Positions 1 through 13,698 of a stretch of 15,684 nucleotides of DNA are shown here, piece by piece. Below the pieces are notes generated by a model. The model saw only the letters and a program-made list of their open reading frames with translations, was not told the origin of the DNA and did no database searches. This stretch comes from Candidatus Bathycorpusculum sp. Its GTDB lineage: Archaea > Thermoproteota > Bathyarchaeia > Bathyarchaeales > Bathycorpusculaceae. Location: assembly GCA_009779045.1 (NCBI GenBank), contig WREZ01000006.1, positions 1 through 15,684 of the forward strand. The letters run 5' to 3'. Every line of letters begins with the position of its first letter. Position 1 is the first letter of the stretch. The translations under genes were made by a program, and so were the position numbers.

Positions 1-47
1 CTATATTGGTTATGTCTGAAAATGTGGGTGGGGTTTTGGGTTGTTGT
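1..47. other. Non-coding edge after prephenate dehydrogenase gene
   Basis: These 47 bases lie downstream of the last gene of the minus-strand aromatic operon. The plus strand is G/T-rich, so the minus strand is A/C-rich. I see no start codon, stable hairpin or oligo-T run on the minus strand that would mark a terminator. Whether the operon continues to the left cannot be judged from this window. Confidence 0.5.
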
Positions 48-923
48 TTATTCTTCGGTTGATTGTAGCATACGGTACATTGTTTCGTAGCTTTTGCTAT
101 AGTTGTTGTCGGTTTTGGCAAGTTTTGTTCGTAGTCGTTCCATTCTTGCCATGATTTCGGTGGTGTTTTTGTTTTTCATTAGGTCTAGCCATGTTTGGGC
201 GTTTTGGATGAAGTGTTCTTCTATGTTGCTTAAGTTTGATAGTTTGGTTTGTATATTTGCGTATATGTCGGGGGTTTCTTGTGCGGTGGCTTCGGCTAGG
301 GTGAAGAGCATGCGGTATGTGGTGCCGGCAAGTTTTTTAGATTCAGTGAAATTTTTTTGTTCTAGTAGTGTTTCGCAGGTGACTAAGCCTATGAATTGTG
401 GTAGTCCTAAAATTATGGACATAAGTTCGTCGTGTTTTTGTGGGGTCATGATGAAGACGTTGGCGCCTTCTTTTTCAAGCCATTGTTTGTATTTTTCTGC
501 AGTTTTTTCTTCTTGTTGATTAGTTGGGGTGAGTACATAGGCTTTATGTGTTACGCCATTGCTGCCGGGGCCAAATACTGGGTGAGTGCCTAAAACTGTT
601 GCGTCTTTGATGTATTGGTGCATGATGTTAACGGGGTGTTCTTTTATGGAGCAAATGTCCATTATTACTTGTTCTTTATGGGTGAAGGGTGCAATGGTTT
701 TGATTATTTCTTCAAAAGAGGATATGGAAGTGCAGATAAGAATGTTATCTGCGTTTTGTACTGCTTTTTGAAAATCTGTAGTTGTTTCAATTTGCAGTTC
801 TTCTTTGAGTTTAGCCATTTTCTCAGCACTACGGCTGGCAAGAATTACGGTGTCGCCTTTTTCTTTACAGAATTTGGCAAACCATAGGCCCATTTTTCCT
901 GCGCCAAGAATGGCTGTTTTCAT
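48..923 (-). CDS. tyrA: Prephenate dehydrogenase (TyrA family)
   Basis: This 291-residue protein probably oxidises and decarboxylates prephenate (or arogenate) on the way to tyrosine in the cytoplasm. The N-terminus is a Rossmann fold with the loop GAGKMG at residues 7-12. The second strand ends in SRS (30-32) with no acidic residue, which suggests NADP rather than NAD. The family hallmarks follow: Ser92 in CSIKEH, the catalytic-histidine motif THPVFGP with His114, and HDELMS near 164-169 leading into the helical dimerisation domain. There is no obvious ACT domain and no fused chorismate mutase, since a separate mutase gene lies two genes upstream. It is the last recognisable gene of the operon and starts at an ATG one base after the aminotransferase stop. 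The family is clear; choice of prephenate or arogenate, and of cofactor, is inference. Confidence 0.87.
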   Translation of the reverse strand: MKTAILGAGKMGLWFAKFCKEKGDTVILASRSAEKMAKLKEELQIETTTDFQKAVQNADNILICTSISSFEEIIKTIAPFTHKEQVIMDICSIKEHPVNIMHQYIKDATVLGTHPVFGPGSNGVTHKAYVLTPTNQQEEKTAEKYKQWLEKEGANVFIMTPQKHDELMSIILGLPQFIGLVTCETLLEQKNFTESKKLAGTTYRMLFTLAEATAQETPDIYANIQTKLSNLSNIEEHFIQNAQTWLDLMKNKNTTEIMARMERLRTKLAKTDNNYSKSYETMYRMLQSTEE

Positions 924-924
924 T

Positions 925-2004
925 CTATTTGGGGGCCTCGCAGATTTTATCTAACCCCTCCTCTATCTCATTGTCTGGTGCGGTTAAGCTTATGCGGAAA
1001 TGTTCTCTGTAGTCGCCAAAGCTTGTGCCTGGTGCTACTGCTACGCCGCTGTCTAAGAGGCTGAGAGTGAATTTTTCTCCGTCTAAGCCTTCTCGTTTAG
1101 GGAATACATAGAAGGGTGCATCTGGTTGGGTGAATTTGAAGCCTGCGGCGCCTAGTTTTTTGCTTGCAAGGTCTGCACGTTGTTTGTATTTAGCTTTAAT
1201 GTTTTCTGCAATTTGTTCACGTAACTCTAAACCTTTCATTGCGGCTTCTTGGATAAATACGGGTACATTGTTGAAGGTGATTTGGTTTAGTTTAGTTACT
1301 TGATCAATAAGCATTTTGTTTGCTATTATGTAGCCAACACGCCAACCTGTCATAGTGAACGTTTTGCTAAATCCATTGGAGAGAATATGTTTAGAATCAG
1401 CACCATAGTCTAGAATGCTTTTGGTTTTGTTAAAAGCGATCGCGCCGTAAACCTCATCGGAGAGTACAATTATGCCTTTTTTGTTGGCAATTTCAACAAT
1501 GCCGTCAAGTGTTTTATCATCCATAATTTTGCTTGTTGGATTGTTTGGGTTATTTAAAATAATCATTCTAGTTTCGCTATCTACTAGACTTTCAAGTTGG
1601 TCTAAGTCAACTTTCCATCCTGTTTCCATTTCTGTTTTAAGCAGTTTAGTTTGGGCGCCAATGCTTTTAGCAATTAAATCATAAGCGGTCCAATATGGTG
1701 TGGGAATAATTACGTTGCCTCCTTTTTGCATGGTTAAAAACATAGTGCTAAAAATGGCCCATTTTGAACCTGGGGTAATTACTACGTTTTCTGCTTTAAC
1801 ACCATGTATTTCAGCAATTTTTTGACGTAGTTTAAGCTCACCATAGGAAGAGGCATACTTAGTTTTACCTGCCTTCATTGAAGCATAAGCTGCTTCAACA
1901 ATTTCAGGTGGTGTAGCCATATCGGGGTCACCGAGGTTTAATCGAATTATCTTTTTGCCTTCGCTTTCTAGTTTTAATGCTTTCTCATTTATCTCATATA
2001 GCAT
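925..2004 (-). CDS. Class I/II PLP aminotransferase, probably aromatic or aspartate type
   Basis: This is a fold-type I, PLP-dependent aminotransferase of 359 residues. The substrate region LNLGDPD lies at 23-28, and NNPNNPT at 151-157 holds the cofactor asparagine (Asn155). Asp183 and Tyr186 sit in SDEVY, the Schiff-base lysine is Lys214 in GFSKTFTMTGW, and Arg337 in FRISL is the carboxylate-binding arginine. It is slightly short at the N-terminus compared with family members of about 380-400 residues. No earlier start is available in frame, and GGAGAG lies 9 bases before the ATG, so this start is sound. Its position between chorismate mutase and prephenate dehydrogenase suggests it transaminates prephenate, phenylpyruvate or hydroxyphenylpyruvate. 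Sequence alone does not exclude aspartate aminotransferase activity. Confidence 0.85.
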   Translation of the reverse strand: MLYEINEKALKLESEGKKIIRLNLGDPDMATPPEIVEAAYASMKAGKTKYASSYGELKLRQKIAEIHGVKAENVVITPGSKWAIFSTMFLTMQKGGNVIIPTPYWTAYDLIAKSIGAQTKLLKTEMETGWKVDLDQLESLVDSETRMIILNNPNNPTSKIMDDKTLDGIVEIANKKGIIVLSDEVYGAIAFNKTKSILDYGADSKHILSNGFSKTFTMTGWRVGYIIANKMLIDQVTKLNQITFNNVPVFIQEAAMKGLELREQIAENIKAKYKQRADLASKKLGAAGFKFTQPDAPFYVFPKREGLDGEKFTLSLLDSGVAVAPGTSFGDYREHFRISLTAPDNEIEEGLDKICEAPK

Positions 2005-2033
2005 AAAGAATGACTCTCCGTTAAGAGTTCCTT

Positions 2034-2294
2034 CTACTTTTGAATCTCAATGCACATATTAACTATTTCGCGATAAAGCAACTCAATTTGTGCAGGTTTC
2101 AACCCAAATTCAATAGCTCTATCTTTTACTTTACTGAAAACCTCTTGTTCCCTACTCTTATCAAGTATAGGTAAGCCCTGTTGCTTTTTGTATTCGCCGA
2201 TTTTCCGGCAAATATCAACGCGCATACTTAACGCTTTTAAAATTTGGGCATCAATCTCATCTATACGTTCACGTAATGCCTGAATATCTTCCAA
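2034..2294 (-). CDS. aroQ: Chorismate mutase, AroQ class
   Basis: A small all-helical enzyme of 86 residues that converts chorismate to prephenate, the branch point toward Phe and Tyr. It aligns with the E. coli mutase domain at a constant offset of three. Arg8, Arg25, Lys36, Asp45, Arg48, Glu49 and Gln85 match the known active-site residues Arg11, Arg28, Lys39, Asp48, Arg51, Glu52 and Gln88. Ser84 of E. coli is Cys81 here. It stands alone, fused neither to a dehydratase nor to a dehydrogenase. The start codon is TTG at 2294, with GAGGT at 2306-2310, 11 bases upstream; no ATG exists nearby because the aroC stop lies six bases before. The family call is firm. Confidence 0.92.
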   Translation of the reverse strand: MEDIQALRERIDEIDAQILKALSMRVDICRKIGEYKKQQGLPILDKSREQEVFSKVKDRAIEFGLKPAQIELLYREIVNMCIEIQK

Positions 2295-2300
2295 ACTCTA

Positions 2301-3440
2301 CTACAACCTCTCTTTTTTACTATTATTATTTTTATCTTCAAAAAATACTCTGGTAATGTGTCCTGCACGTATCAGATGATCCACCAGAGTTACCGCGGCC
2401 ACTGCTTCAATAGCTGGTACAGCCTTAGGTACAACACACGGGTCATGTCTACCATTCACGTTTAACGTGACATTTTCCATGGTTAACAAATTAATCGTTT
2501 TTTGCTCTCTACTAATAGACGGTGTAGGCTTAATTGCCACTCTCATCGTAATCGGCATACCACTGCTTATGCCTCCAAAAATGCCGCCTGCATTATTTGT
2601 AACTGTCTCAACTTTGCCATCCTTTACTGTGAACTCATCGTTATTTTGAGAACCAAACATTTCTACCGCAGCAAAACCCGTGCCAAATTCTACACCCTTC
2701 ACCGCAGAAACCCCAAACAATGCCTTAGCTAGATCAGCATCTAAAGCATCAAACAATGGTTCCCCAACACCTGCAGGCACATTAAAGGCAACACATTCCA
2801 CTATGCCCCCTATACTATCACCCATATTTTTAGCCGCAACAATAGCCTCCTCCATTTTTTCGGCACAAACAAGATCTGGGCATCTTGTAGCAGCAATGCT
2901 GCGATTTTTGCGAATTTCAACAGCGCTGCTAAACTTTTTTTCAGACTTGACTTTACCTATAGATACGGTGTAAGCTAAAACATCAATGTTATATCTATTC
3001 AAAAGTTTTTTAGCAATTACACCTGCCATCACAAGTGCCACTGTGACCCGTCCCGAAAATCTTCCCCCACCTCTATAATCATTAAAACCCCCATAACGGA
3101 CACAAGCTGGATAATCACAATGCCCCGGCCTTGGCAAATCTCTAATTTTATCATAATCAATAGACATGATTTCCTTATTATCCACAGTTATCGCGATAGG
3201 CGCACCCGTAGTTTTACCATTAAAAACACCACTTAAAATTTTAGCAGTATCTTTTTCAATACGAGCTGAAACAATCTTAGGTTGCGCTGGAATTCTCTGG
3301 TCAAGTTCTTCTTGAAAATCCTCCTCAGAAATTGACAACCCCGCTGGACAGCCATCAATAAGTACACCCACAATTTTACCATGGCTCTCTCCAAACGTGG
3401 TTACAACGAATTCTTTACCTAACGAGTTTCCCGCCAACAA
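2301..3440 (-). CDS. aroC: Chorismate synthase
   Basis: This enzyme turns EPSP into chorismate by a 1,4-elimination that needs reduced FMN; the last step of the shikimate pathway. The 379-residue length is normal for the family. The N-terminal signature GESHG (17-21) carries His20, RPGHCDY (104-110) carries the second catalytic His107, and the glycine/arginine loop YRGGGRFSGR spans 122-131. That loop is closer to the archaeal RGGGxFSGR form than to the bacterial RGGGRSSAR form. The gene starts at TTG, with AGGAG six bases upstream, inside the last 26 bases of aroA. Translation therefore probably depends on that internal ribosome site and on coupling. A second TTG is the next codon and could also serve. 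Confidence 0.95.
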   Translation of the reverse strand: MLAGNSLGKEFVVTTFGESHGKIVGVLIDGCPAGLSISEEDFQEELDQRIPAQPKIVSARIEKDTAKILSGVFNGKTTGAPIAITVDNKEIMSIDYDKIRDLPRPGHCDYPACVRYGGFNDYRGGGRFSGRVTVALVMAGVIAKKLLNRYNIDVLAYTVSIGKVKSEKKFSSAVEIRKNRSIAATRCPDLVCAEKMEEAIVAAKNMGDSIGGIVECVAFNVPAGVGEPLFDALDADLAKALFGVSAVKGVEFGTGFAAVEMFGSQNNDEFTVKDGKVETVTNNAGGIFGGISSGMPITMRVAIKPTPSISREQKTINLLTMENVTLNVNGRHDPCVVPKAVPAIEAVAAVTLVDHLIRAGHITRVFFEDKNNNSKKERL

Positions 3441-4719
3441 TTTCCGCTCCTATACTTGATAAATCAGTATAAAACGACGGATAAGACTTTCTGATACATT
3501 CCGCATTTTTCACTATAGTTTCTCCATTTGCCCGTAAAGCCGCAACAGAGCAAGACATAGCTATTCGATGATCATTACATGGATCAATGGTTGTCCCATG
3601 AAGTTTACAGGGCCCCTTAATGGTTAAACTTGAGTCATCCATACTAATTAAGGCCCCCATCTTTGTTAATTCTTTATAAACAGTGACTAACCGATCAGAC
3701 TCTTTAAATCTTAACCGTTGAGCATTAAAAATCTTTGACTCCCCCTCCGCATAGCAAGCCAAAACTGCACAAATTGGCACAAGATCAGGAATATCTTTCA
3801 CATCAATATCAACCGCCTTCAACAAGACTCCCTCACCTTTAACCCCCACCCACTGCTCATTAATTTCCATATTAACCCCCATCTGTTTAAGGACATCTAA
3901 AATCGCTTTGTCACCTTGCTTTGTTTGGTAATTCAGATTGTTTATTTTTACATTTGAGTTGGTGATGGCTGCTGCAGCTAAAAGAAACGCTGCCGACGAA
4001 AAATCACCCGGCACTTTACAGTCAACCTGCCTAAAGGACTGACTACCTAAAACATGGATATCACGATAATCCTCACTTATTTGTACTTCAATATGGTGCT
4101 GAGCGAGAACTTCTTGAGTCATTTTAACGTAATCTTTAGACTCAAGTGGAGTTGTAATTTGTATTTCAGTGTCCGCCTTAGCCATTGGGCAAGCAAACAT
4201 TAACCCACTAACAAATTGACTACTAACATCACCACGAATACTGGTCTTTCCACCCGCTAAACCCTTGCCCTCGACAACTATAGTTTGTTGTTTTTCTATC
4301 TGTTTTGGATAAGCTTCTACATTAAGCATTTTAAGACTTGAAAGCAAAGGCTCAATTGGTCGGCGACTAAGTGAGCTAGATAATAGAAATGATGTTTGTC
4401 CTATAGCTAAAGCGGCGATAGGGATCATAAACCGTAGGGTTGCACCTGATTCACCGACATCTATTGCCTCATTTGTAGCCTTTAACTTGTCTGTACCTTG
4501 AACTGTCCAATGATTTTTATCCTGATGTACTTGAGCGCCAAGAGCCGTGATTGCCCGAAAAGTGGCTTGTGTGTCTTCTGATAAAAGCGGGTTTATAATT
4601 TTTCCTGAACCTTTGGAAAGTGCAGTGGCTATAAGCATGCGTTGTGTGTAGGATTTTGATGCTGGTGCGGTTAAGATGCCTTGTAAACTATTTACCGGTT
4701 TAACAGTTATGTTGGCCAT
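3415..4719 (-). CDS. aroA: 3-phosphoshikimate 1-carboxyvinyltransferase (EPSP synthase)
   Basis: It transfers the enolpyruvyl group of PEP to shikimate-3-phosphate. The protein has 434 residues, close to the family norm, and shows the two-domain inside-out barrel hallmarks. Lys22 and Arg27 lie in PASKSYTQR, GESGATLRF is at 89-97, GDVSSQF at 163-169 and DLVP at 312-315. LRFKESDR (336-343), DHRIAM (383-388) and Lys411 complete the substrate-binding set. Nothing essential appears missing. The ATG start overlaps the preceding shikimate kinase stop by one base (TAATG on the minus strand). The 3' end overlaps aroC by 26 bases, which implies coupled translation of the two consecutive steps. Confidence 0.95.
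   Translation of the reverse strand: MANITVKPVNSLQGILTAPASKSYTQRMLIATALSKGSGKIINPLLSEDTQATFRAITALGAQVHQDKNHWTVQGTDKLKATNEAIDVGESGATLRFMIPIAALAIGQTSFLLSSSLSRRPIEPLLSSLKMLNVEAYPKQIEKQQTIVVEGKGLAGGKTSIRGDVSSQFVSGLMFACPMAKADTEIQITTPLESKDYVKMTQEVLAQHHIEVQISEDYRDIHVLGSQSFRQVDCKVPGDFSSAAFLLAAAAITNSNVKINNLNYQTKQGDKAILDVLKQMGVNMEINEQWVGVKGEGVLLKAVDIDVKDIPDLVPICAVLACYAEGESKIFNAQRLRFKESDRLVTVYKELTKMGALISMDDSSLTIKGPCKLHGTTIDPCNDHRIAMSCSVAALRANGETIVKNAECIRKSYPSFYTDLSSIGAEIVGGKLVR
3447..3451 (-). promoter_or_regulatory. Ribosome binding site deciding the TTG start of aroC
   Basis: On the minus strand AGGAG stands six bases before TTG at 3440. It lies inside the aroA reading frame. It fixes the start of aroC because no ATG or GTG fits the conserved family N-terminus (AGNSLGKEF). 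Confidence 0.65.
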
Positions 4720-5594
4720 TATGTAAGCACCCTGGCTTTTTCATGGTTTAAGTTTGTTTGTATAATTTCTCCTTCATAAGTTTGCCAAACTGCTTTAACT
4801 TGTTCTATATAGTCTTTGGATACGACAGCGGTGGTTGTAGGTCCTTTGCCGCATAATCCTGCTGCTTTTGCTCCAACATTTAGAGCATCTATAGCGATTT
4901 TGTCATCGAATCCTAACATAGCTGAATAGCATTGGCCATTTAATGTTAACGCTTCCCAATGTAGTCCATTTAAAGCCATGTTGTAGGCTGTCTCAATTTG
5001 GGGTTTAAATGAAGAAAAATTGCTAATGTCTGTATTTATGGTGTAAATTTTTTTAGGTGGGACTTGAAATAAAACTACATAGTCATCAGTTAGTGCTTCT
5101 CGTTTTACAAGTTTGTAATTCAAGTTGTCAGTGATAACTAAGTCGCCAAAGTATGATGCGCAAGCGTCATCAAATGCGCCTGTGATGGTGACTTTTGCTT
5201 CAAATGCTGCTAAAACGCCTAATTTTACAATTTCTATATCTTCCAAAGATTCGTCTAACGCGCCTAATGTTGCAAGAATAACTGCGTTAGCAGCTGTGCT
5301 GCTGCTTTTTAGTCCTCTAGCAATGGGAATATTGCTCCAGGTTTTAACTTTTGCGCCTAATTCTTTTTCTAGTTTGAAGTGTTTGAGAACTGCTAATATG
5401 GCTCTTTGAACTAAAACAGGGTTCTCTCCTTGGTCAGGTGTAATTTCTGTTTCAATAATTTGTGGTTCATTGGTTATTTTTACGTGTGCTTTAGTGTAGA
5501 GATTAACGCCGAAAGCTGCTCCTTTCTTAGTTGCCATGGCATTAACAATTGTTGCCGCCCCATGAGCTAACGCTGTTGCTTCCATAGGTCTCAT
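4719..5594 (-). CDS. aroK: Shikimate kinase, archaeal GHMP type
   Basis: It phosphorylates shikimate at the 3-OH using ATP. This is the archaeal enzyme of the GHMP kinase superfamily, unrelated to the P-loop shikimate kinase of bacteria. The phosphate-binding loop IARGLKSSSTAANA lies around 91-104, and a glycine-rich C-terminal motif (AAGLCGKGPTTTA) is near 240-252. At 291 residues the length fits. The ATG at 5594 overlaps the aroE stop as ATGA. A second Met at codon 4 is a possible alternative, but the ATGA overlap favours the first. The assignment rests on fold motifs plus a position between aroE and aroA, where a shikimate kinase is required. Confidence 0.93.
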   Translation of the reverse strand: MRPMEATALAHGAATIVNAMATKKGAAFGVNLYTKAHVKITNEPQIIETEITPDQGENPVLVQRAILAVLKHFKLEKELGAKVKTWSNIPIARGLKSSSTAANAVILATLGALDESLEDIEIVKLGVLAAFEAKVTITGAFDDACASYFGDLVITDNLNYKLVKREALTDDYVVLFQVPPKKIYTINTDISNFSSFKPQIETAYNMALNGLHWEALTLNGQCYSAMLGFDDKIAIDALNVGAKAAGLCGKGPTTTAVVSKDYIEQVKAVWQTYEGEIIQTNLNHEKARVLT

Positions 5595-6460
5595 GCAATT
5601 TGCACCCTGCCCAGTTGTTCTAAGGCAGCTTTTCTCATAACTTGTACCGGCGCTTTATGTCCTGTCCAAATTTCAAACGCTGCTGCTCCTTGATAAATTA
5701 ACATTTCCACTCCGCTTATCACCTTAGCGCCTGCTGCTTTAGCATCTTTAATAAGTCGAGTTTCAAGCGGATTATAAACTATATCCATAACAGTTAAGTC
5801 AGGTCTTAAACAATCTAACGCAATTAAGCTTCTCTGATCTGTGTTGTTTTTCATTCCAACAGATGTTGTGTTAAGTAAAATGTCTGAATTGCTAATTTTC
5901 TCTCCAATAATCTCTGGTGAGAGTGAGTTTACAATGATTTTTTTGCCAAACTTGTGTTTTAGGGTTTCTGCTAACTTTTCTGCCACTGAGACTGTGCGAT
6001 TAAGAACGACAAGTTCTTCTACTTCTTCAATTAGTGTGTGGGCTATTACTCGTGCTGCTCCACCCGCTCCAAGCATTAACACCCGTTTCCCGTGGGGATT
6101 TGCTCTGTTTTTTTTAAGTGCTTCAAGAGCACCTATACCATCAGTGCTATATCCAAAAAGTTTGCCCTCTTTGCAGTGGATGGTATTTACAGAGTTTAGG
6201 TATTTAGCAGTTTCATCAACCCAATCTAAATGCGGTATTACAGCTTCTTTATGAGGCATAGTAACACTCAAACCTAGCATACCTAAAGCCCTTATTCCTG
6301 CTAAAGCATTAGCAACCTCTGAAGGTTTTACCATAAACGCTGTGTAAACAGCATCTATATTTAGCGCGTTAAATGCTGCGTTTTGTATTACAGGACTTAA
6401 CGAATGCTCTATTGGATCACCGATAACTGCACAAACATGTGTTTTTCCTGAAATAGTCAC
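5591..6460 (-). CDS. aroE: Shikimate dehydrogenase
   Basis: It reduces 3-dehydroshikimate to shikimate with NADPH. The 289-residue protein shows the full pattern: HSLSPVIQN (19-27) with the substrate-binding serines Ser20 and Ser22, VTMPHK (66-71) with catalytic Lys71, and NSVNTI (89-94). STDGIG (105-110) carries Asp107 of the catalytic pair. The C-terminal NADP domain has GAGGAARV (131-138) and NRT (154-156), the usual NADPH-selective signature. The start is GTG, two bases after the aroD stop, with only a weak ribosome binding site, so translation is probably coupled to aroD. In some bacteria aroD and aroE are fused; here they are adjacent but separate. Confidence 0.95.
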   Translation of the reverse strand: MTISGKTHVCAVIGDPIEHSLSPVIQNAAFNALNIDAVYTAFMVKPSEVANALAGIRALGMLGLSVTMPHKEAVIPHLDWVDETAKYLNSVNTIHCKEGKLFGYSTDGIGALEALKKNRANPHGKRVLMLGAGGAARVIAHTLIEEVEELVVLNRTVSVAEKLAETLKHKFGKKIIVNSLSPEIIGEKISNSDILLNTTSVGMKNNTDQRSLIALDCLRPDLTVMDIVYNPLETRLIKDAKAAGAKVISGVEMLIYQGAAAFEIWTGHKAPVQVMRKAALEQLGRVQIA

Positions 6461-6462
6461 AG

Positions 6463-7140
6463 TTATTGCCTCAATAAAGAGTAGGCCGTTCTCATGTCAT
6501 TTATGCTTATTTGTCCAGGTGCAGTTTCACTACCCTGTTCTAAAGCGGCAAAAGTGAAGAATGCTCCAAAAACTGGTGAAAGTAACCGGGAGATCCTGCC
6601 TTGTTCACCCATACAGAAGCATACCAGATGTGTTTTAGCCGCGTTTTCTGAAATAAAATTAAGCACAGTTAGGTTATCCTGTGTATTTTTAGCGGTGCTA
6701 ATTATTTTACAAACATCCGCTCCACTACTTTTTTCTTCATTTAAGATACGATGCATTTCTTGAGTGTTAAATGCGCCATCAAATTTGTGAAAAGAAACAA
6801 TAGTTTTAACGTTAAGTTCTTTTAAATCGCTGATTTGTTCTTTTAATTTTAAATTTGTTAAATCTAAATCGACATATTGGAACCCATTTTTTGCAGCGTC
6901 TATTAAAGTCTGCCAATGTTGTATTTGTGTTCCAGTAAAACTGCCTCTCTCACTTGGTAACTTGTTTGTGGCAATAAGAGGAATTTTAGTCGAAGCTGAA
7001 AGGTCACTAAATTTTGGGGTTTCAAAATTATCTAAGCGAATTTCAATAAAGTCTGCTTTAGCTGCCTCAGCTTTCTCAATTAGGGCTAATGCTTCCTTGT
7101 TGGTTTTTGGTTTTACTGAAACGCAAATGTTAGGTGTCAT
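6463..7140 (-). CDS. aroD: 3-dehydroquinate dehydratase, type I
   Basis: It dehydrates 3-dehydroquinate to 3-dehydroshikimate through a Schiff-base intermediate. At 225 residues it is a normal archaeal type I enzyme (TIM barrel). Glu33 and Arg35 lie in EIRLD, catalytic His118 in SFHKF, the Schiff-base lysine is Lys145 in DVCKI, and Arg182 with the APGQ loop (207-210) closes over the substrate. The ATG overlaps the stop of the DHQ synthase gene as ATGA. It sits directly between the enzymes that make its substrate and use its product. Confidence 0.93.
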   Translation of the reverse strand: MTPNICVSVKPKTNKEALALIEKAEAAKADFIEIRLDNFETPKFSDLSASTKIPLIATNKLPSERGSFTGTQIQHWQTLIDAAKNGFQYVDLDLTNLKLKEQISDLKELNVKTIVSFHKFDGAFNTQEMHRILNEEKSSGADVCKIISTAKNTQDNLTVLNFISENAAKTHLVCFCMGEQGRISRLLSPVFGAFFTFAALEQGSETAPGQISINDMRTAYSLLRQ

Positions 7141-8150
7141 TTTTCAATCACTGTTTCGTCAGGTACACTAACACCGAAGTGTCTGCCGCCTTTTGCGGTA
7201 AGATGAACTATTACTTCATCACCCGGCTTAAGTTCGGTGACTGGTTTAGAGCCATTAGGCATAACTACACGTATAGTCTCTGCATTTTGCAGTATAGTTT
7301 TAATTAATTTATCTCCACTCTGTGCTTCGATAAGGATTAGTGGTCTAATTTCAATTTTTATTCTACCTACATTGGTTTTGCGTGTTTTGCCATCTTGTCT
7401 AATAATTACTACTTCATCGCCAGCTTTGAGTTCTTGAAGATATCGTGTAGTTTGTAAATTGCCTAAAGTATACATAGACAAAGAGCCTGCATTAACTCTA
7501 AATGGTCGTGATGCAACATATGGGTTTTCATGGACTTCTGCTTCTACTAAAAATAACCCTGCGCTCTGGCTGCCAACAAGTATGCCATCACCTGGAGCCA
7601 TTAAATCACAGGTGTCAACACATACACGCGCGCCATTACCAATTGGTTTAGTGGAAATAATTTTTGCAACTGCCATTTCAAGTTTTAACGCTTCAGGTTT
7701 AACAATTGCAACAGTTTTCAGGATCTCTTCTAAATGAGTAGACCTAAGTAGTACTCCATCGGTGCCTAACTCTAAAGTTTCAAGAGCAACTTTTGCCTCT
7801 TCAGCATTAGTTACCTCCGCAATTAGTTTGCTCTTTCCATTAATGCGTGCAATAAGATTCTCTAACGGGATAACTCTCCAATTTGTAGTGCTAATTAACA
7901 AATAACTTGCACCTCTTTCGGCTGCTTCAACAATCATATTTTCTGTTGATTTATCTGAGATACAAATTCTTAGAATTTTACCCTTAACTTCTAAACTTTC
8001 AAAACTTGAGACTGTCGGCGACAAAATGGGGTGTTCTTGTTTTAATGCTATAAAACTGGCTGTGTCTCTTTCAACTATTACATCGCCGTATTGGTTAATA
8101 AGATCTGTTGGTGTGTTTTGTTTGCTGGTTTCTATCCAGAGTTCTTTCAA
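7137..8150 (-). CDS. aroB': 3-dehydroquinate synthase II (archaeal type)
   Basis: This 337-residue protein matches the archaeal family, known from Methanocaldococcus MJ1249. That enzyme oxidatively deaminates and cyclises 2-amino-3,7-dideoxy-D-threo-hept-6-ulosonate to 3-dehydroquinate with NAD. It is unrelated to bacterial AroB. The best-conserved stretch is the central block around 174-206 (RVCVDTCDLMAPGDG then GSQSAGLFLVEAE). A region rich in the GDEV type of turn follows, with IRPLILIEAQ near the C-terminus. The start is TTG at 8150, overlapping the stop of ADH synthase as TTGA, and GGTGA stands six bases upstream. Partnership with the ADH synthase just upstream is the defining arrangement of the archaeal route. 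Confidence 0.92.
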   Translation of the reverse strand: MKELWIETSKQNTPTDLINQYGDVIVERDTASFIALKQEHPILSPTVSSFESLEVKGKILRICISDKSTENMIVEAAERGASYLLISTTNWRVIPLENLIARINGKSKLIAEVTNAEEAKVALETLELGTDGVLLRSTHLEEILKTVAIVKPEALKLEMAVAKIISTKPIGNGARVCVDTCDLMAPGDGILVGSQSAGLFLVEAEVHENPYVASRPFRVNAGSLSMYTLGNLQTTRYLQELKAGDEVVIIRQDGKTRKTNVGRIKIEIRPLILIEAQSGDKLIKTILQNAETIRVVMPNGSKPVTELKPGDEVIVHLTAKGGRHFGVSVPDETVIEK

Positions 8151-8938
8151 GGTGTTTCACCGAGAATTTTTTGTGCTTGCTCTATAGATGCCCCTTTATG
8201 TACAATAGCTGAGAGTGCTTTAACAATTAAAGCTTGGTTGTTCCATTGGAATATGTTGCGTCCCATTGAGAGTCCAGCGGCGCCTGCTTTTATGGCGTCG
8301 TTTGTGGTTTGTAGTAGTTCTTCTACAGATGTACATTTTGGTCCGCCCGCAATGAGGACTGGTACAGGGCAGCTTTCTGTAACTTGTTTAAATGTCTCTA
8401 CTGTTCCTGTATAGTTAGTTTTTATTATGTCTGCTCCTAGTTCTGCGCCAATTCTAGCTGCATGAGCTACTACTTCAAGGGCATGTTCATCTGTGATTTT
8501 TGGTCCTCGAGGGTACATCATGGCAAGGAGGGGTAAACCGAATTTTTCGCATTCTTCAGCTACTTTTCCAAGAGTTGACAGCATTTTATCTTCTTCTGGG
8601 GCGCCTACGTTTACGTGTACAGCAACTGCGTCAGCGCCAAGTCGTGTAGCTTCTTGTACGCTGCAAACTTGAACTTTGTTATTCATGTTTGGATTAAGAT
8701 TTGATATGCCGTTAAGCATTACGATTAATCCTGTGCCTGTGGCGTCAACGTTTTTTGCGATGCCTTTGTGAACAAGAATCGCGTCAACACCGCCTTTAAT
8801 AAGTTGATCAATTGTCTGTTGCATGTTAGTGATGCCACAAATTGGTCCAATAGTTACTCCATGATCCATGGGAACAATTATTGTACGGTTGTCTTGTTGC
8901 ATGATTTGTTTCATTCGTCTATTTTTACCTTGATTCAC
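8147..8938 (-). CDS. aroA': 2-amino-3,7-dideoxy-D-threo-hept-6-ulosonate synthase
   Basis: This DeoC/FbaB-type aldolase of 263 residues joins aspartate semialdehyde to the dihydroxyacetone-like part of 6-deoxy-5-ketofructose 1-phosphate, the first committed step of the archaeal aromatic route. Catalytic residues correspond to those of MJ0400: Asp25 in VPMDHG, Tyr142 in MMYPRG and the Schiff-base Lys173 in IIKTNYTG. The Tyr-Lys spacing of 31 residues is the same as in MJ0400. The phosphate-binding segment AGGPK is at 197-201 and MGRNIFQ lies near the C-terminus. The start is probably GTG at 8938, because the following GKNRR segment fits the family N-terminus; Met9 is an alternative. A fructose-bisphosphate aldolase role is unlikely given the neighbours. 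Confidence 0.92.
   Translation of the reverse strand: MNQGKNRRMKQIMQQDNRTIIVPMDHGVTIGPICGITNMQQTIDQLIKGGVDAILVHKGIAKNVDATGTGLIVMLNGISNLNPNMNNKVQVCSVQEATRLGADAVAVHVNVGAPEEDKMLSTLGKVAEECEKFGLPLLAMMYPRGPKITDEHALEVVAHAARIGAELGADIIKTNYTGTVETFKQVTESCPVPVLIAGGPKCTSVEELLQTTNDAIKAGAAGLSMGRNIFQWNNQALIVKALSAIVHKGASIEQAQKILGETP
8157..8161 (-). promoter_or_regulatory. Ribosome binding site deciding the TTG start of DHQ synthase II
   Basis: GGTGA on the minus strand lies six bases before TTG at 8150, inside the end of the ADH synthase gene. It matches the archaeal anti-Shine-Dalgarno sequence well and supports a TTG start that would otherwise look doubtful. Confidence 0.65.
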
Positions 8939-8952
8939 GTTATTCCATATCC

Positions 8953-10197
8953 TTATTGTGTTTTCAATGAATTTTTAATGAGTTCTAATGCTTTTTCTTT
9001 CTCGTTCCAATCTACAAACAACAAAATACTTGAAGTAATAGTCAATATGCCTGAAATGTTGATGCCTGCGAGTCTTAGGTCTTCGCTGATTTTTCCGATA
9101 ATGCCATGTGTTTCTTCAAGACCTACTCCGCTGGTTTGGATAAAGGATAGATCTTTTTTTACTGCCATAGCAATTGTTTCTTTGTTATCTACTGTAATTT
9201 TATGGATTTGGTCAAAAAGTTCTGAGATGTTGTCTTTTTGATTTATGTAAAATATGATGGAGTTTGTGTTCATTGACATGCCAAGTAATGTGGTGTGTTG
9301 TCTGACTTTTTCAAACATTTCCATTATGATTTTAGTGTTATTTGAAATGCCTTCTCCGATAACTGTTATTTCGGCAACAGGTGTTAAACTGGCGATTTCA
9401 GCATCAAGCTCCCATGATAATGCGTCTTTGATTAGAGTGCCTGGCTTGTTTAGGTCATCATGTTTATTGCTCATAACTTTAACATCAATATCCTTTGGTT
9501 TATATTTAAGGGCTTTACTGTGAATAAATTTGGTGCCAGAATCAGCTAAACCCACTAAAGTGTTAACGTTAATTTCTGGCAAAAGTTTTGGGTTTTGAAT
9601 AATTTTAGGATCGCTTGTCATGATACCCTCTGCGTCTGTGACAAGTATAATTTGGTCAGCTCCTATGCTTTCTCCTATGATGAATGCTGTTGTGTCACTT
9701 CCGCCTCTGCCTAGAGTGGTTATTTTGCTTTCTCTAGTTTTGCCTACAAAGCCGGCTATCACAGGAATTATTCCCTGCTCAACAAGTGGAAGAACATGGC
9801 CCTTGATGTTTTTGTTGCATTCTTCAATGTTTGGGTTCGCGTTTTGAAAGACATCGTCAGTAATTATGGGCCATTTATCGTCCATAGGATCAAAATAGCA
9901 TGTATTAACTCCATTATTGCGCAATGCCGCAGTAAAAATACGCGCGCTTGTGCGTTCTCCCATGGACAAAATATCGTCTAATTCGCATTTAGCCAGCTTA
10001 CCGTTTGAAGTATTTTTAGCTGTAGCTAAGAGTATGTCAGTGGTTTTACCCATGGCTGAAACTACGATCACCATTTTGGTGCCTCGTTTAACCTCTGAAA
10101 CCGCCGTCATTACAGACTTTAGTAGTTTTTCAGGGTCAGCAAGACTTGAACCACCAAATTTAACCACAATTTTTTTACCAGATTTTACATTTTCCAT
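8953..10197 (-). CDS. lysC: Aspartate kinase with C-terminal ACT domains
   Basis: It phosphorylates aspartate, the first step to aspartate semialdehyde. Kinase motifs are KFGGSS (13-18), SMGERTSA (78-85), TLGRGGSDTTA (161-171) and VTDAEGIMTSDP (186-197). Two ACT regulatory domains follow, at about 274-345 and 350-414; the second contains GIIGKISEDLRLAGINI. The 414-residue length suits a monofunctional enzyme with no homoserine dehydrogenase fusion. It is the first gene of the aro operon, 14 bases before ADH synthase, which consumes aspartate semialdehyde. GGTG lies seven bases before the ATG. Lysine here is made through aminoadipate, so this kinase need not serve lysine. Its ACT ligand could be a different amino acid, which is inference. 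Confidence 0.93.
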   Translation of the reverse strand: MENVKSGKKIVVKFGGSSLADPEKLLKSVMTAVSEVKRGTKMVIVVSAMGKTTDILLATAKNTSNGKLAKCELDDILSMGERTSARIFTAALRNNGVNTCYFDPMDDKWPIITDDVFQNANPNIEECNKNIKGHVLPLVEQGIIPVIAGFVGKTRESKITTLGRGGSDTTAFIIGESIGADQIILVTDAEGIMTSDPKIIQNPKLLPEINVNTLVGLADSGTKFIHSKALKYKPKDIDVKVMSNKHDDLNKPGTLIKDALSWELDAEIASLTPVAEITVIGEGISNNTKIIMEMFEKVRQHTTLLGMSMNTNSIIFYINQKDNISELFDQIHKITVDNKETIAMAVKKDLSFIQTSGVGLEETHGIIGKISEDLRLAGINISGILTITSSILLFVDWNEKEKALELIKNSLKTQ

Positions 10198-10215
10198 AAT
10201 TTTACACCATTACAC

Positions 10216-10247
10216 GCCCAGAACATCCAAACTTGTCAGTTCTGGGC
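10216..10247 (-). promoter_or_regulatory. Perfect 9-bp hairpin or dyad before aspartate kinase
   Basis: GCCCAGAAC (minus strand 10247-10239) is followed after 14 bases by GTTCTGGGC (10224-10216), a perfect inverted repeat. The first base of the stem is the last base of the TAG that closes the aromatic-rich leader ORF. The stem ends eight bases before the GGTG ribosome site of aspartate kinase. No oligo-T follows it, so it is not a standard intrinsic terminator. It could be an attenuator hairpin in the leader RNA or, if transcription starts nearby, a DNA operator with arms about two helical turns apart. Confidence 0.6.
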
Positions 10248-10306
10248 TAATCATAAAAACGATAATAAAAACCGTATTCGAAGCTATGTTTTTGTGTTTC
10301 CTTCAT
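10247..10306 (-). CDS. Putative Phe/Tyr-rich leader peptide of the aro operon
   Basis: The minus strand reads MKETQKHSFEYGFYYRFYD and then TAG. Codons 9, 13 and 17 are Phe and codons 11, 14, 15 and 18 are Tyr, giving seven aromatic codons among ten, with no Trp. Both TTC and TTT, and both TAC and TAT, occur. An ATG at 10327, in frame, would give a 26-codon version, with AAGGT ten bases before it. The stop codon touches a 9-bp hairpin, and aspartate kinase begins 49 bases after the stop. Such a layout is what amino-acid attenuators look like in bacteria. The operon ends in chorismate mutase, an aminotransferase and TyrA, so Phe and Tyr fit as signals. The alternative is chance coding by a T-rich promoter; I cannot tell which from one sequence. 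Confidence 0.45.
   Translation of the reverse strand: MKETQKHSFEYGFYYRFYD
10262..10272 (-). promoter_or_regulatory. Alternative proximal TATA-like element for the aro operon
   Basis: The minus strand here reads GTTTTTATTATC-like sequence, which could act as a TATA box. A start near 10240 would then fall inside the 9-bp dyad, making that dyad an operator. This reading excludes the leader-peptide model, because the same bases are the Phe/Tyr codons. Confidence 0.25.
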
Positions 10307-10338
10307 GTTAATGTTAGGATTTACCATTTTGCTTCGAA
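10277..10338 (-). promoter_or_regulatory. Upstream inverted repeat bracketing the leader start codons
   Basis: TTCGAAGC (minus strand 10338-10331) and GCTTCGAA (10284-10277) form an 8-bp inverted repeat with a 46-base spacer, extendable by one G-U pair. In RNA the spacer holds both candidate leader ATGs, and the 3' arm is the Ser8-Phe9-Glu10 codons of the leader ORF. Translation of the leader would melt it. TTCGAA is itself palindromic, so paired protein-binding sites are an alternative. Confidence 0.35.
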
Positions 10339-10362
10339 CCTTAAGAGTGGTTGTAGCCAAAA

Positions 10363-10377
10363 AAATATAAGCGTTTC
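10363..10377 (-). promoter_or_regulatory. Distal BRE/TATA promoter candidate for the aro operon
   Basis: On the minus strand CGAAACGC is followed by TTATATTT (10370-10363), resembling an archaeal BRE plus TATA box. A start about 25 bases downstream, near 10341, would give a leader of about 145 bases that includes both inverted repeats and the aromatic-rich ORF. The adjoining run of seven T (10365-10359) could also end the lrp transcript. Confidence 0.4.
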
Positions 10378-10515
10378 GGGGGCAGATAATAAATTAAAAC
10401 GTTATTTGCTTAATAATTAATAATATGTTGATGTGTGAAAAGTTTTATGGTGTTGTGTTTGTTGTCTTTGTGTATTGGTAGTTTGTTTGGGTTTATTGTT
10501 TGCTGTGGTGTTTGT
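10378..10515. other. Non-coding spacer between regulator gene and aro leader
   Basis: This is the upstream part of the 318-base gap between the Lrp-type gene and aspartate kinase. Next to the lrp stop (about 10424-10515) the plus strand is almost entirely G and T: 54 of 60 bases at 10441-10500. Farther left it is AT-rich, with AAACGTTA at 10397-10404. I see no tRNA, small RNA motif or convincing gene in it. Confidence 0.5.
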
Positions 10516-10926
10516 TTAGATGTTGCGTAGGACTATCATGGTGTTGGTTTTTGTTATGCCTTCTACTCTTCGTATTTTTTCTATGCATTCGTTGACTTCG
10601 ACTACGTTTATGCCGCTTATGACTACGATGATGTCGTATTCGCCTGTTACTTCGTATATGGTTTCTACGTTGGGGATTGTTTGTATGTGTTTTGTTACTT
10701 CTTGTGTGGGGTAAGCGGGGTTTACGGTTAGTAGTGTTATGGCTTCTGCGCCTTCATTTACGTTGACTTTTATTGTGAATTTGCGGATTATGTTATCGTC
10801 TGTTAGGGTTTTGATTCTTTTTCTAACGGCGCCTTCGGATAGGCTGATTTGGTTGCCGATTTCGGCGTAGCCTGCTCTTGAGTCGTCTTTTAGTGTTTTT
10901 ATGATTTTTTTGTCTGTTTCGTCCAT
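10516..10926 (-). CDS. Lrp/AsnC family transcriptional regulator (LysM-like candidate)
   Basis: A 136-residue DNA-binding protein of the feast/famine family. The N-terminal winged helix-turn-helix covers about 1-55 (DETDKKIIKTL then LSEGAVRKRIKTL). A C-terminal ligand-binding RAM domain at about 63-136 contains VTGEYDIIVVI, where such proteins bind amino acids between dimers. It is transcribed divergently from lysW with 236 bases between the starts. In Sulfolobus the Lrp-type protein LysM regulates a lysW cluster, so a similar job is a reasonable inference, as is autoregulation. It also lies upstream of the aro operon in the same orientation, 318 bases away, so it might control that too. GGATGA stands three bases before the ATG. 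Confidence 0.88.
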   Translation of the reverse strand: MDETDKKIIKTLKDDSRAGYAEIGNQISLSEGAVRKRIKTLTDDNIIRKFTIKVNVNEGAEAITLLTVNPAYPTQEVTKHIQTIPNVETIYEVTGEYDIIVVISGINVVEVNECIEKIRRVEGITKTNTMIVLRNI

Positions 10927-10951
10927 TTGTCATCCTGTAGTGTGGCGTCTT

Positions 10952-10961
10952 GTTTAAATTT
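10952..10961 (-). promoter_or_regulatory. TATA-like box for the Lrp-type gene
   Basis: The minus strand reads TTAAATTTAA, 26-35 bases before the ATG. A start about 25 bases downstream would place the 5' end at or just before the start codon, giving a leaderless or very short leader transcript. A weak dyad (GTACT 10972-10976, AGTAC 10991-10995) lies just upstream. Confidence 0.4.
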
Positions 10962-11011
10962 AACGTTTTCGGTACTGTAACTGCTTGGAAAGTACGTTTA
11001 TCGTTTTTTTG

Positions 11012-11057
11012 TTATGGTTTTTTGTTGTGTTTTTGTTTTTGTTTTATGGTTTTTTGT
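11012..11057. repeat. Two 14-bp direct repeats, 32 bp apart, in the lrp/lysW divergent region
   Basis: TTATGGTTTTTTGT occurs at 11012-11025 and again at 11044-11057, starting exactly 32 bases apart, about three helical turns. They lie in a T/G-rich stretch between the two divergent promoters. A regulator-binding role is possible, but low sequence complexity makes coincidence more likely than for a mixed sequence. Confidence 0.5.
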
Positions 11058-11066
11058 GCCATTTGG

Positions 11067-11094
11067 AACATTTGTTTGGTGGCCTGTAACATTT
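11067..11094. repeat. AACATTT direct repeats, 21 bp apart, upstream of lysW TATA
   Basis: AACATTT occurs at 11067-11073 and 11088-11094, two helical turns apart, ending 11 bases before the TATA-like box of the lys cluster. This is where an Lrp-type activator or repressor would be expected to bind, though no known consensus was matched. Confidence 0.4.
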
Positions 11095-11105
11095 ACGTCA
11101 TAACG

Positions 11106-11113
11106 TTTAAAAG
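11106..11113 (+). promoter_or_regulatory. TATA-like box for the lysW cluster
   Basis: TTTAAAAG, preceded by CATAACG, fits an archaeal TATA element. A start about 25 bases downstream, near 11136, would leave a leader of about 27 bases containing AAGTGA (11150-11155), seven bases before the lysW ATG. Confidence 0.45.
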
Positions 11114-11162
11114 ATACCCTATTTTATTAAACCGTTCATTTCAAATAAAAAGTGAATAAATA

Positions 11163-11363
11163 ATGACAAACTCTACAAATCCAAATACCTTCAAAGCAAA
11201 ATGTCCCGATTGTGATGCAGAACTAGAAATATCCTCTGACACAGAAGTAAGTGAAATCGTTAGTTGCTCTGGATGTGGTCTTGAGCTTGAAGTAAAGAGC
11301 ATTAGAGACGGTTGCGTAGACCTGCAAGAATTAACTATCGAAGGCGAAGACTGGGGAGAATAA
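11163..11363 (+). CDS. lysW: Amino-group carrier protein LysW
   Basis: A 66-residue acidic carrier protein. Its C-terminal glutamate forms an isopeptide bond with the amino group of alpha-aminoadipate (or glutamate), so that later enzymes act on a protein-bound intermediate. The N-terminal zinc knuckle has Cys14-Pro-Asp-Cys17 and Cys35-Ser-Gly-Cys38, and the C-terminus is the diagnostic EDWGE (62-66). The length matches other archaeal homologues, and it carries about ten extra N-terminal residues compared with Thermus LysW. It opens the cluster lysW-X-Y-Z-J and should be made in excess over the enzymes. The call is firm; whether the cargo is only aminoadipate or also glutamate is open. Confidence 0.95.
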   Translation: MTNSTNPNTFKAKCPDCDAELEISSDTEVSEIVSCSGCGLELEVKSIRDGCVDLQELTIEGEDWGE

Positions 11364-11386
11364 CCAGTTAATAAACAAGAATCCTG

Positions 11387-11394
11387 TTTTATAA
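11387..11394 (+). promoter_or_regulatory. Possible internal promoter before lysX
   Basis: TTTTATAA in the 64-base lysW-lysX gap lies about 34 bases before the lysX ATG, a fair distance for a TATA box. It could let lysX and the downstream genes be expressed independently of lysW. It could equally be chance in AT-rich DNA. Confidence 0.2.
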
Positions 11395-11427
11395 CGATGT
11401 CAATTTTTGAAAGGAAAATTTAGCGCG

Positions 11428-12606
11428 ATGAGCATCGCTCTTCTTTATGAACGTTCAGAAAATGATGAAGCGGGCATAAAGCACACTGCGCAACAGCTTG
11501 GAATAGACCTAAATTTTATACCCTTTCGTAAAATAGCTCTAACAATATCAAAAGAAGGGTTTACCGCTAAAACTAAAGGTAAAGACTATACTGACGTTTT
11601 CAATCAAACTGTTGTTGTGCTTAATCGTGCGCAAAGTAAAAATCGGCGTCTTCAAGCCTCATATATTATGGAAGCGCTTGGTAAAAAAACCTTAAACACC
11701 AGCCAAGTGGAATTTACCTGTTACAGCAAACTGCGTACTCTGCTAAAACTTTGGAAAGCAGGCCTGCCTGTTCCTAAAACTGTATTTGTGCCCTGTGATG
11801 CTTCTGATTTTATGAAAAACCACAGAGAAATTCACAACGAAAACGACATAGCTGACCTATTTCAAGCAGAAATTCCCATTGACGACGGTATAGTAATCAA
11901 GGCAGATGCTGGAACCCATGGCAAAATGATTATGCTCTCAAAAACCCGTGAAGAACTCATAGATAATATAAAAAAAACAAAACCAAACATTATAAACCCC
12001 ATAGGCGTTGTCGCTCAAGAATTAATTAACAAATGGTTCTATGATTTGCGTATAATAGTTTACAAAGAGAAAGGTAAACAAGCGATTTGTCATAATAAGG
12101 CGTTGGCGCGGGCGGGGTTTAAAGATTTTCGCACGAATACTTTTCTTGGGAATTTGGTGTTTGAAGCTAACCTGCCTACAAATGTTCTTGATTTGGCCGT
12201 CAAATGTGGTAATACTTTAGGTGAGGGTAATGATGCTTGGATCTTTGCTCTTGATGCTATGGTCAATGTTTCTGATAAGCATGTAGATGAAGCTTTTATA
12301 AAGGCGCAGCTTGATTTTGCGGCGCAGGAGTATTTGCCTGTGCAAAAAGTAAAGGCAGCTGAGACGCGTTTGACGGATTTTTCTGCTTGGAACACAAAGT
12401 TAGAGCAGGCTTTTAGTATGTACGCAAACTCTAGTTCTTACCAGAAAGTTAAAAATGTAATTGATGAAAATATTGCAAATAATAGAGATGCTCTTGTGTT
12501 TCATGAGGCGAATTCCTGTCCAGAGTTTTGGGAAAACACCCGACTTGTAACAGGTTTAAATGTGGCAGTTCCGCTCTTAAAAACTGCTCAAAGTCTAATA
12601 GACTAG
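11428..12606 (+). CDS. lysX: LysW ligase LysX (ATP-grasp), with a large insertion
   Basis: An ATP-grasp ligase that couples the amino group of aminoadipate to the LysW C-terminus. From the ATG at 11428 it has 392 residues, against about 280 for Thermus LysX. Homologous landmarks are the N-terminal ALLYERSENDE, CYSKLRTLLKLWKAGLPVPKT, the nucleotide-binding VIKADAGTHGKM, AQELINKWFYDLRIIV, and FRTNT in the substrate loop. Metal ligands fall at Asp276 (ALD) and at Glu360 and Asn362 (HEANS). About 84 residues separate Asp276 from Glu360, where Thermus has about 11. The extra part looks helical and polar. AAAGGA lies 12 bases before the ATG; a TTG at 11407 would add seven residues and fits the family less well. 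A second substrate (glutamate, ArgX activity) is possible. Confidence 0.88.
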   Translation: MSIALLYERSENDEAGIKHTAQQLGIDLNFIPFRKIALTISKEGFTAKTKGKDYTDVFNQTVVVLNRAQSKNRRLQASYIMEALGKKTLNTSQVEFTCYSKLRTLLKLWKAGLPVPKTVFVPCDASDFMKNHREIHNENDIADLFQAEIPIDDGIVIKADAGTHGKMIMLSKTREELIDNIKKTKPNIINPIGVVAQELINKWFYDLRIIVYKEKGKQAICHNKALARAGFKDFRTNTFLGNLVFEANLPTNVLDLAVKCGNTLGEGNDAWIFALDAMVNVSDKHVDEAFIKAQLDFAAQEYLPVQKVKAAETRLTDFSAWNTKLEQAFSMYANSSSYQKVKNVIDENIANNRDALVFHEANSCPEFWENTRLVTGLNVAVPLLKTAQSLID

Positions 12607-12638
12607 TAGTAGCTCAAGTTGAGGAGAAGAAACAAGCT

Positions 12639-13694: not shown

Positions 13695-13698
13695 TATT

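Follow-up and report, generated by a model that had tools for sequence, protein, structure and literature searches.

Does the short open reading frame (ORF) ahead of an archaeal aromatic amino-acid operon let ribosomes report phenylalanine and tyrosine supply, or does T-rich DNA there merely read as Phe and Tyr codons? The question arises from 15,684 nt of Candidatus Bathycorpusculum sp. (contig WREZ01000006.1, positions 1 to 15,684), here called the window, for which an initial annotation had proposed a leader ORF acting as a candidate attenuator. The relevant features of the window are as follows.

10363..10370, minus strand: TATA box TTATATTT, behind CCGAAACGC, the predicted operon promoter (sequence, and TATA spacing in aligned relatives)
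10338..10340, minus strand: predicted transcription start, at about 10340 (from the TATA spacing)
10340-10331, minus strand: GGTTCGAAGC element (sequence)
10331..10338, minus strand: hairpin A 5′ arm TTCGAAGC, at the predicted transcript 5′ end (alignment of 46 loci)
10247..10327, minus strand: leader ORF MVNPNINMKETQKHSFEYGFYYRFYD, 26 codons plus TAG (sequence and relatives)
10277..10284, minus strand: hairpin A 3′ arm GCTTCGAA, within the ORF at Ser-Phe-Glu (alignment)
10253..10282, minus strand: Phe/Tyr codon cluster FEYGFYYRFY, putative control codons (conserved in kind across families)
10249-10247, minus strand: leader stop codon TAG (sequence)
10239..10247, minus strand: hairpin B 5′ arm GCCCAGAAC, its first G being the last base of the stop codon (sequence, alignment)
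10216..10224, minus strand: hairpin B 3′ arm GTTCTGGGC (sequence, alignment)
10205..10208, minus strand: GGTG, a Shine-Dalgarno-like site (sequence), assigned by its position to aspartate kinase
8953..10197, minus strand: aspartate kinase, the first gene of the operon, ATG at 10197 (NCBIfam models)
48..8938, minus strand: remaining aromatic-operon genes, from ADH synthase to prephenate dehydrogenase (NCBIfam, Pfam)

Leader ORF and operon

The leader ORF lies where it had been placed, 49 nt before aspartate kinase, and seven of ten consecutive codons are indeed Phe or Tyr. Two lengths had been offered for it. The 26-codon version (ATG at 10327) stands as the conserved form and the 19-codon start falls, since aligned relatives start at about 10327; in relative L013 the start is GTG, at about the position of this ATG. 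The ORF begins ∼13 nt downstream of the predicted transcription start. The perfect hairpin described as abutting the stop was found as a stem of 9 bp with a 14-nt loop (10247-10216), an exact repeat expected 0.00 times in shuffles.

The Phe/Tyr run alone is not rare. Among the 361 ORFs of at least 10 residues in the window, six, the leader included, have at least six Phe/Tyr per 10 codons, and the five others of similar kind speak for the view that this is T-rich promoter or 5′-end DNA reading as Phe/Tyr by chance. It is because the leader is conserved among relatives, and not because of the run alone, that we take it to be more than chance. Rfam covariance models (Rfam 15; riboswitch, T-box) gave no match at gathering score in the window.

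The content reported for the operon, from aspartate kinase to prephenate dehydrogenase and including chorismate mutase and an aminotransferase, is matched by family models. The first gene is recognized by the NCBIfam aspartate kinase models (best E 1.6e-109), with the broad model TIGR00657 above its cut-off, and its named relatives are from Candidatus Bathycorpusculum and other Bathyarchaeia. Positions 48..8938 hold genes for ADH synthase, DHQ synthase II, DHQ dehydratase, shikimate dehydrogenase, archaeal shikimate kinase, EPSP synthase, chorismate synthase, chorismate mutase, an aminotransferase and prephenate dehydrogenase. ADH synthase was found within ∼2 kb behind the kinase in nine of ten distant loci checked, the exception being L258. 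Family models also place a LysM-like regulator of the Lrp family next to the operon (10516-10926, minus strand) and a divergent LysW/LysX-type cluster near it (11163-12606, plus strand).

Distribution among kinase loci

Orthologous kinase loci (107) were sampled from the genus, family and order, from other orders of the class and from other classes of the phylum. At each, the best ORF ending 30–190 nt before the kinase anchor was taken, and Phe and Tyr were counted in its last 14 codons. Kinase matches G100:C77, G124:C184, G005:C11, G057:C74, G075 and G080, being short, partial or weak, were left unfetched, as were six matches in family f35; ten from f24 and one from f13 were added later and are outside the 107.

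A score of at least six was reached at 83 of the 107 loci, other classes of the phylum included, although these loci share descent and the counts are not independent. Among dinucleotide shuffles 0.4% scored as high, and among random real windows 1.0%. No Phe/Tyr leader was found by the same rule at 20 paralogous aspartate kinases of the same clades (0/20), which also counts against chance reading of T-rich DNA. Prephenate dehydratase loci (30) gave no score of six, all scoring at most 4, and no obvious leader ahead of the gene.

Low scorers numbered 24. Five score 5 (L010, L069, L165, L179 and L181). The rest were grouped by eye: L187, L188 and L189 score 3 or 4 yet have a shorter aromatic leader, thirteen are of the frameshift-site type described below, and L178, L180 and L182, from other classes, have neither leader nor frameshift site (3/107 loci).

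A covariance model of the leader RNA matched once per genome in 36 of 90 genomes, each of these matches lying by coordinates just upstream of the aromatic-operon kinase. Training sequences account for 35 of these; G122 (family f6, E 5e-4) was outside the training set. No further copies of the leader were found, there being one match per matching genome, in a search whose filters lose weak matches.

Coding evidence

If the stretch were merely T-rich DNA, codons for Leu, Ile and Val should be frequent in it. The tails are 49% T, as that explanation would have it, and this composition predicts 24% Phe+Tyr and 33% Leu+Ile+Val. The last 12 residues of 82 leaders instead contain 61.2% Phe+Tyr (32.5% Tyr, 28.7% Phe) and 1.9% Leu+Ile+Val, with 1.5% Trp. 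The other two frames of the same tails give 11–12% Phe+Tyr and 38–55% Leu+Ile+Val. The annotators' own objection, that a T-rich promoter merely reads as Phe/Tyr, is strongly opposed by this frame-specific bias, and the TATA box is a separate element upstream. Chance reading of T-rich DNA is already largely refuted, and we give it a next to negligible probability.

Relatives keep the frame, the stop and the aromatic bias while third positions vary (TAC/TAT, TTC/TTT in conserved columns), so that the frameshifts or internal stops which would have spoken against a coding leader were not encountered. Over the first eight codons of the conserved tail, pairwise single changes are 1312 synonymous and 1057 non-synonymous. 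This gives a rough omega of 0.12 over 47 tails, a value that is not tree-corrected and whose first three codons overlap hairpin A arm 2. The stop codon in 49 loci is TAA in 35, TAG in 11 and TGA in three.

Coding conservation could also mean that the product itself acts, as a small protein or a nascent-chain arrest peptide, with codon supply not being sensed. The end SF[DEG]Y.FYY is conserved in most of family f1, which speaks for such a product, but its SFxY part coincides there with hairpin A arm 2. Between families the Phe/Tyr content is kept and the order is not, and the N-terminal half varies in length and sequence (the N-terminal part of the leaders has 4% Phe+Tyr). We regard an acting peptide as unlikely.

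Promoter and hairpin A

The RNA alignment comprises 46 of the 52 f1 loci fetched; the other six, L058, L059, L061, L071, L072 and L073, whose leaders differ in sequence, are outside it. The TATA centre is 26–29 nt upstream of GGTTCGAAGC and hairpin A in all 46 aligned loci. A transcription start downstream of 10306, which would have told against the leader, is at odds with this spacing: the predicted start, at about 10340, is upstream of the ORF. The leader is thus predicted to sit on the transcript between the promoter and the first structural gene.

Hairpin A pairs TTCGAAGC with GCTTCGA inside the ORF in the f1 alignment. Seven of its pairs are formed in 99.7% of cells (46 loci), the changes being mostly one-sided wobbles in an almost invariant sequence with little true covariation. 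The duplex energy has a median z of −0.8 and falls below −2 in only 11 of 81 loci. We keep hairpin A as a predicted element, on alignment evidence, in family f1 only.

Hairpin B and the stem at the stop

A perfect stem of at least 8 bp starting at most 7 nt from the first base of the stop was found in 72 of 82 leaders, versus 26% of dinucleotide shuffles. Against mononucleotide shuffles, the median z of the fold energy downstream of the stop is −2.9 (83 leaders, including L068, which contains N, whose z is not meaningful and which was left out of the 82- and 81-locus sets). The position of the first paired base was rejected as a measure: it is at most 7 nt from the stop in 81 of 82 leaders, but also in 74% of shuffles, and so is uninformative alone.

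In the 46 f1 loci the nine pairs of hairpin B are formed in 96.9% of cells. Helices A and B together have nine cells changed on both sides, versus 1.5 in shuffles; the helices slid by 1–3 columns give 0–7 such cells, with only 24–46% of cells paired. From the alignment, the covariation is real but modest, and much of both helices is invariant.

Such invariance could have another cause. The arms (GGTTCGAAGC, GCTTCGA, GCCCAG, CTGGGC) might be sites for a DNA- or RNA-binding regulator, the ORF being secondary; the 46 loci show hardly any variation in arm 1 or in the outer stem of hairpin B, and the LysM-like regulator at 10516-10926 is encoded just upstream. This regulator, however, adjoins the LysW cluster and was found at only seven of 30 genus loci (at most 1.5 kb upstream covered, some loci being shorter). 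In other families the arms are unrelated in sequence (judged by eye for the stem), yet the Phe/Tyr cluster and the abutting stem stay. Regulator sites as the primary element are very improbable to us, though the invariant arms may still have a role in binding a protein.

No T-run follows hairpin B in the window. A run of at least four T within 12 nt after the stem occurs in seven of 82 leaders, all in genera other than that of the window. These leaders (L058, L059, L065, L070, L161, L169 and L191, with 4–5 T) resemble a bacterial-type terminator, so that a few lineages may use a hairpin-plus-U signal. A terminator formed by a U-run within the hairpin B loop was also considered and rejected, since neither the window nor some of the relatives has such a run (by eye). 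We saw no competing pairing in the window, nor is pairing of arm 2 with arm 3 or 4 conserved in the 46-locus alignment (by eye). Competition for the hairpin B 5′ arm might come, in family f6, from an arm lying ahead of the ATG (by eye).

Proposed mechanism

Sequence comparison establishes the leader ORF, its codon bias and conservation, its restriction to the aromatic operon, the stem at its stop and its position relative to the predicted promoter. We hold with fairly high confidence that this element serves the aromatic amino-acid operon as a ribosome-sensing leader, reading the supply of Phe- and Tyr-tRNA. The candidate-attenuator reading is supported overall, and the word attenuator is used here in a presumptive sense. 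That the leader is translated, that ribosomes stall on it and that starvation turns the operon on is what we infer from this arrangement.

The transcript would begin at the 5′ arm of hairpin A, and a ribosome would initiate the leader ∼13 nt in. It would then meet the Phe/Tyr cluster, which ends at the stop, exactly where hairpin B begins. With ample charged Phe- and Tyr-tRNA the ribosome would reach the stop and cover the 5′ arm of hairpin B, and hairpin A could refold behind it. With either tRNA short it would stall in the cluster, where it would cover, or have passed, arm 2 of hairpin A; hairpin A would be held open and hairpin B left free. Two ribosome positions would thus give two opposite RNA states, of which the starved one would raise operon expression.

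Candidates for the output step were tried and rejected. For masking of the Shine-Dalgarno site by hairpin B, the mean unpaired probability of the kinase start is 0.478 with B free versus 0.493 with its 5′ arm covered (81 loci, the most upstream ATG being chosen as kinase start). By ribosome position, the predicted accessibility of the kinase start is 0.438 with the ribosome stalled versus 0.449 at the stop (82 loci), no predicted difference. The fold of the window suggested that the U-rich cluster might pair with the kinase start, which is A-rich, but over 82 loci such pairing has a median z of 0.0 versus shuffles. In the last two tests the start nearest to 60 nt after the stop was chosen.

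Because no effect on the kinase start site is predicted, our guess is that the stalled ribosome would block either early termination of transcription or cleavage of the RNA, of the aCPSF1/FttA type, within the U-rich leader. A stalled ribosome could shield the U-rich cluster, since archaeal aCPSF1/FttA-dependent termination acts at U-rich tracts according to the accessible part of PMC7515710; the leader is like the targets of that termination in being U-rich RNA that a ribosome could shield. A regulated, codon-dependent case of aCPSF1/FttA action was not seen in the accessible portions of the open-access literature searched.

Comparison with known systems

Bacterial leader-peptide attenuators (pheL, trpL, hisL) are short ORFs in which end-product codons are dense and which a hairpin follows. 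The leader described here is like them in its dense end-product codons (83/107 loci; 61% Phe+Tyr) and in the hairpin after it, and it is predicted to lie, as they do, between promoter and first biosynthetic gene. It differs from them in being archaeal, in that the window has no T-run behind the hairpin, and in a hairpin A that starts at the predicted 5′ end of the transcript; antiterminator pairing was not seen in the window. An intrinsic terminator (hairpin plus U-run) is absent in the window and was found in seven of 82 leaders. The pheL leader is mentioned in the accessible part of PMC5009743.

In translation attenuators of the ermC type, hairpins upstream of the main gene change when a ribosome stalls on the leader, as described in the available sections of PMC10219788. 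Our element likewise has a leader and hairpins ahead of the main gene, with stalling proposed. In contrast to the ermC type, hairpin B of the window leaves the kinase ribosome-binding site uncovered and predicted accessibility is unchanged; a main-gene ribosome-binding site hidden unless the ribosome stalls is not predicted over the 82 loci.

For archaea, attenuation by upstream ORFs is mentioned in general terms in the part of PMC10219788 available, and a 2021 paper states, in its accessible part, that no transcription attenuation is known there (PMC8448881). No description of an archaeal leader peptide or codon-dependent attenuator was apparent in the portions of open-access literature that the search returned. 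Such a leader, shared by families and classes of a single phylum, would demonstrate that in archaea, too, ribosomes report amino-acid supply to biosynthetic operons. It would also be a concrete, testable system for archaeal transcription–translation coupling without a bacterial hairpin terminator.

Putative +1 frameshift sites

Another explanation of the leader is that starved ribosomes slip +1 in the Phe/Tyr cluster and go on translating, past hairpin B, as far as the kinase start, in the manner proposed below for the hisG-type sites. In its favour, the sequence TTT TAT is a natural +1 slip site, and in 39 of 82 loci the +1 frame ends between −20 and +15 nt of the chosen kinase start (the most upstream ATG). 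In 11 of 13 f6 loci, however, this frame closes 10 nt beyond the first base of the stop codon, and in 12 of 51 f1 loci it does so within 34 nt, and no kinase frame is favoured (25, 26 and 31 of 82). Slipping from cluster to kinase start is not general across the 82 loci, and we rate it a slim prospect at cluster-bearing loci, for which stalling remains our reading.

Sites of another layout were found at other genes. At trpE, a mini-ORF (e.g. ATG GGG AAT CGC CTT TGG) overlaps the gene in 32 of 34 loci (L095–L124 and L192–L195), with trpE in the +1 frame behind NTT-TGG. Of these sites 28 were found by script and four more by eye, one of the four with a GTG start; the G000 locus, cut by a contig end, and two G021 fragments were left out. 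In 23 of the 28 script-found loci no start codon (ATG, GTG or TTG) precedes the site in the trpE frame (exceptions L095, L104, L105, L113 and L123). Loci L117 and L122 have no NTT-TGG site and have an ATG in the trpE frame. From this arrangement the trpE site is a candidate for a +1 frameshift under Trp starvation.

At hisG, leaders with two serial His sites (GAT-TGC-GTT-CAT ... GAT-TGC-CTT-CAT) were found in 23 of 29 loci scanned, all of the genus (L211–L236 except L225, L229 and L234; L207 was not scanned). The corresponding locus in the genome of the window is:

L218, G000:C44, ∼6555-6569, minus strand: hisG leader with serial His sites

In all 23 loci that have the motif, a +1 slip at the first site leads into the frame of the second, and the frame after both slips ends −11 to +10 nt from the hisG start. 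With the intervening stretch shuffled, the frame reaches the start in 7%, versus 20 of 20 real loci. In ten genus genomes a degenerate pattern gave 23 matches, 19 of them at trpE or hisG, while the other four look like chance; the reversed pattern gave five matches.

Families f13, f22 and f24 have the kinase without a Phe/Tyr-cluster leader, and their sites carry Phe and/or Tyr codons (L155, L156, L158–L160, L162, L163, L168, L170, L171, L174, L185, L186 and L196–L206). MGGHLYWH or MGGNLYWH is the reading at all ten f24 loci added later. At six loci whose kinase start is separate, the +1 frame stops no more than ∼25 nt from that start. Many f22 and f24 loci have a GTG in the kinase frame and so do not need frameshifting. 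Sensing of Phe/Tyr at the aromatic operon appears to be kept though the device differs, because the lineages without the cluster carry Phe and/or Tyr at putative frameshift sites in the same place.

We take these sites to resemble the RF2 site. They would consist of a purine-rich stretch, a few nt, NTT and then a codon for the product of the pathway: Trp at trpE, two serial His at hisG and, in other lineages, Phe and/or Tyr at the aromatic kinase. On starvation the ribosome would slip into the frame of the enzyme, or into one running to its start codon. We consider it reasonably probable that Bathyarchaeia and other Thermoproteota have a general codon-hunger control of aromatic and histidine synthesis that uses two interchangeable ribosome devices, the hairpin leader and RF2-like +1 sites. 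If so, programmed frameshifting would serve as an amino-acid sensor.

TGTAC palindromes and a TATA box (often AAGCCTTAAATA) were also seen by eye upstream of trpE in many of L095–L124, an arrangement reminiscent of a TrpY-type operator.
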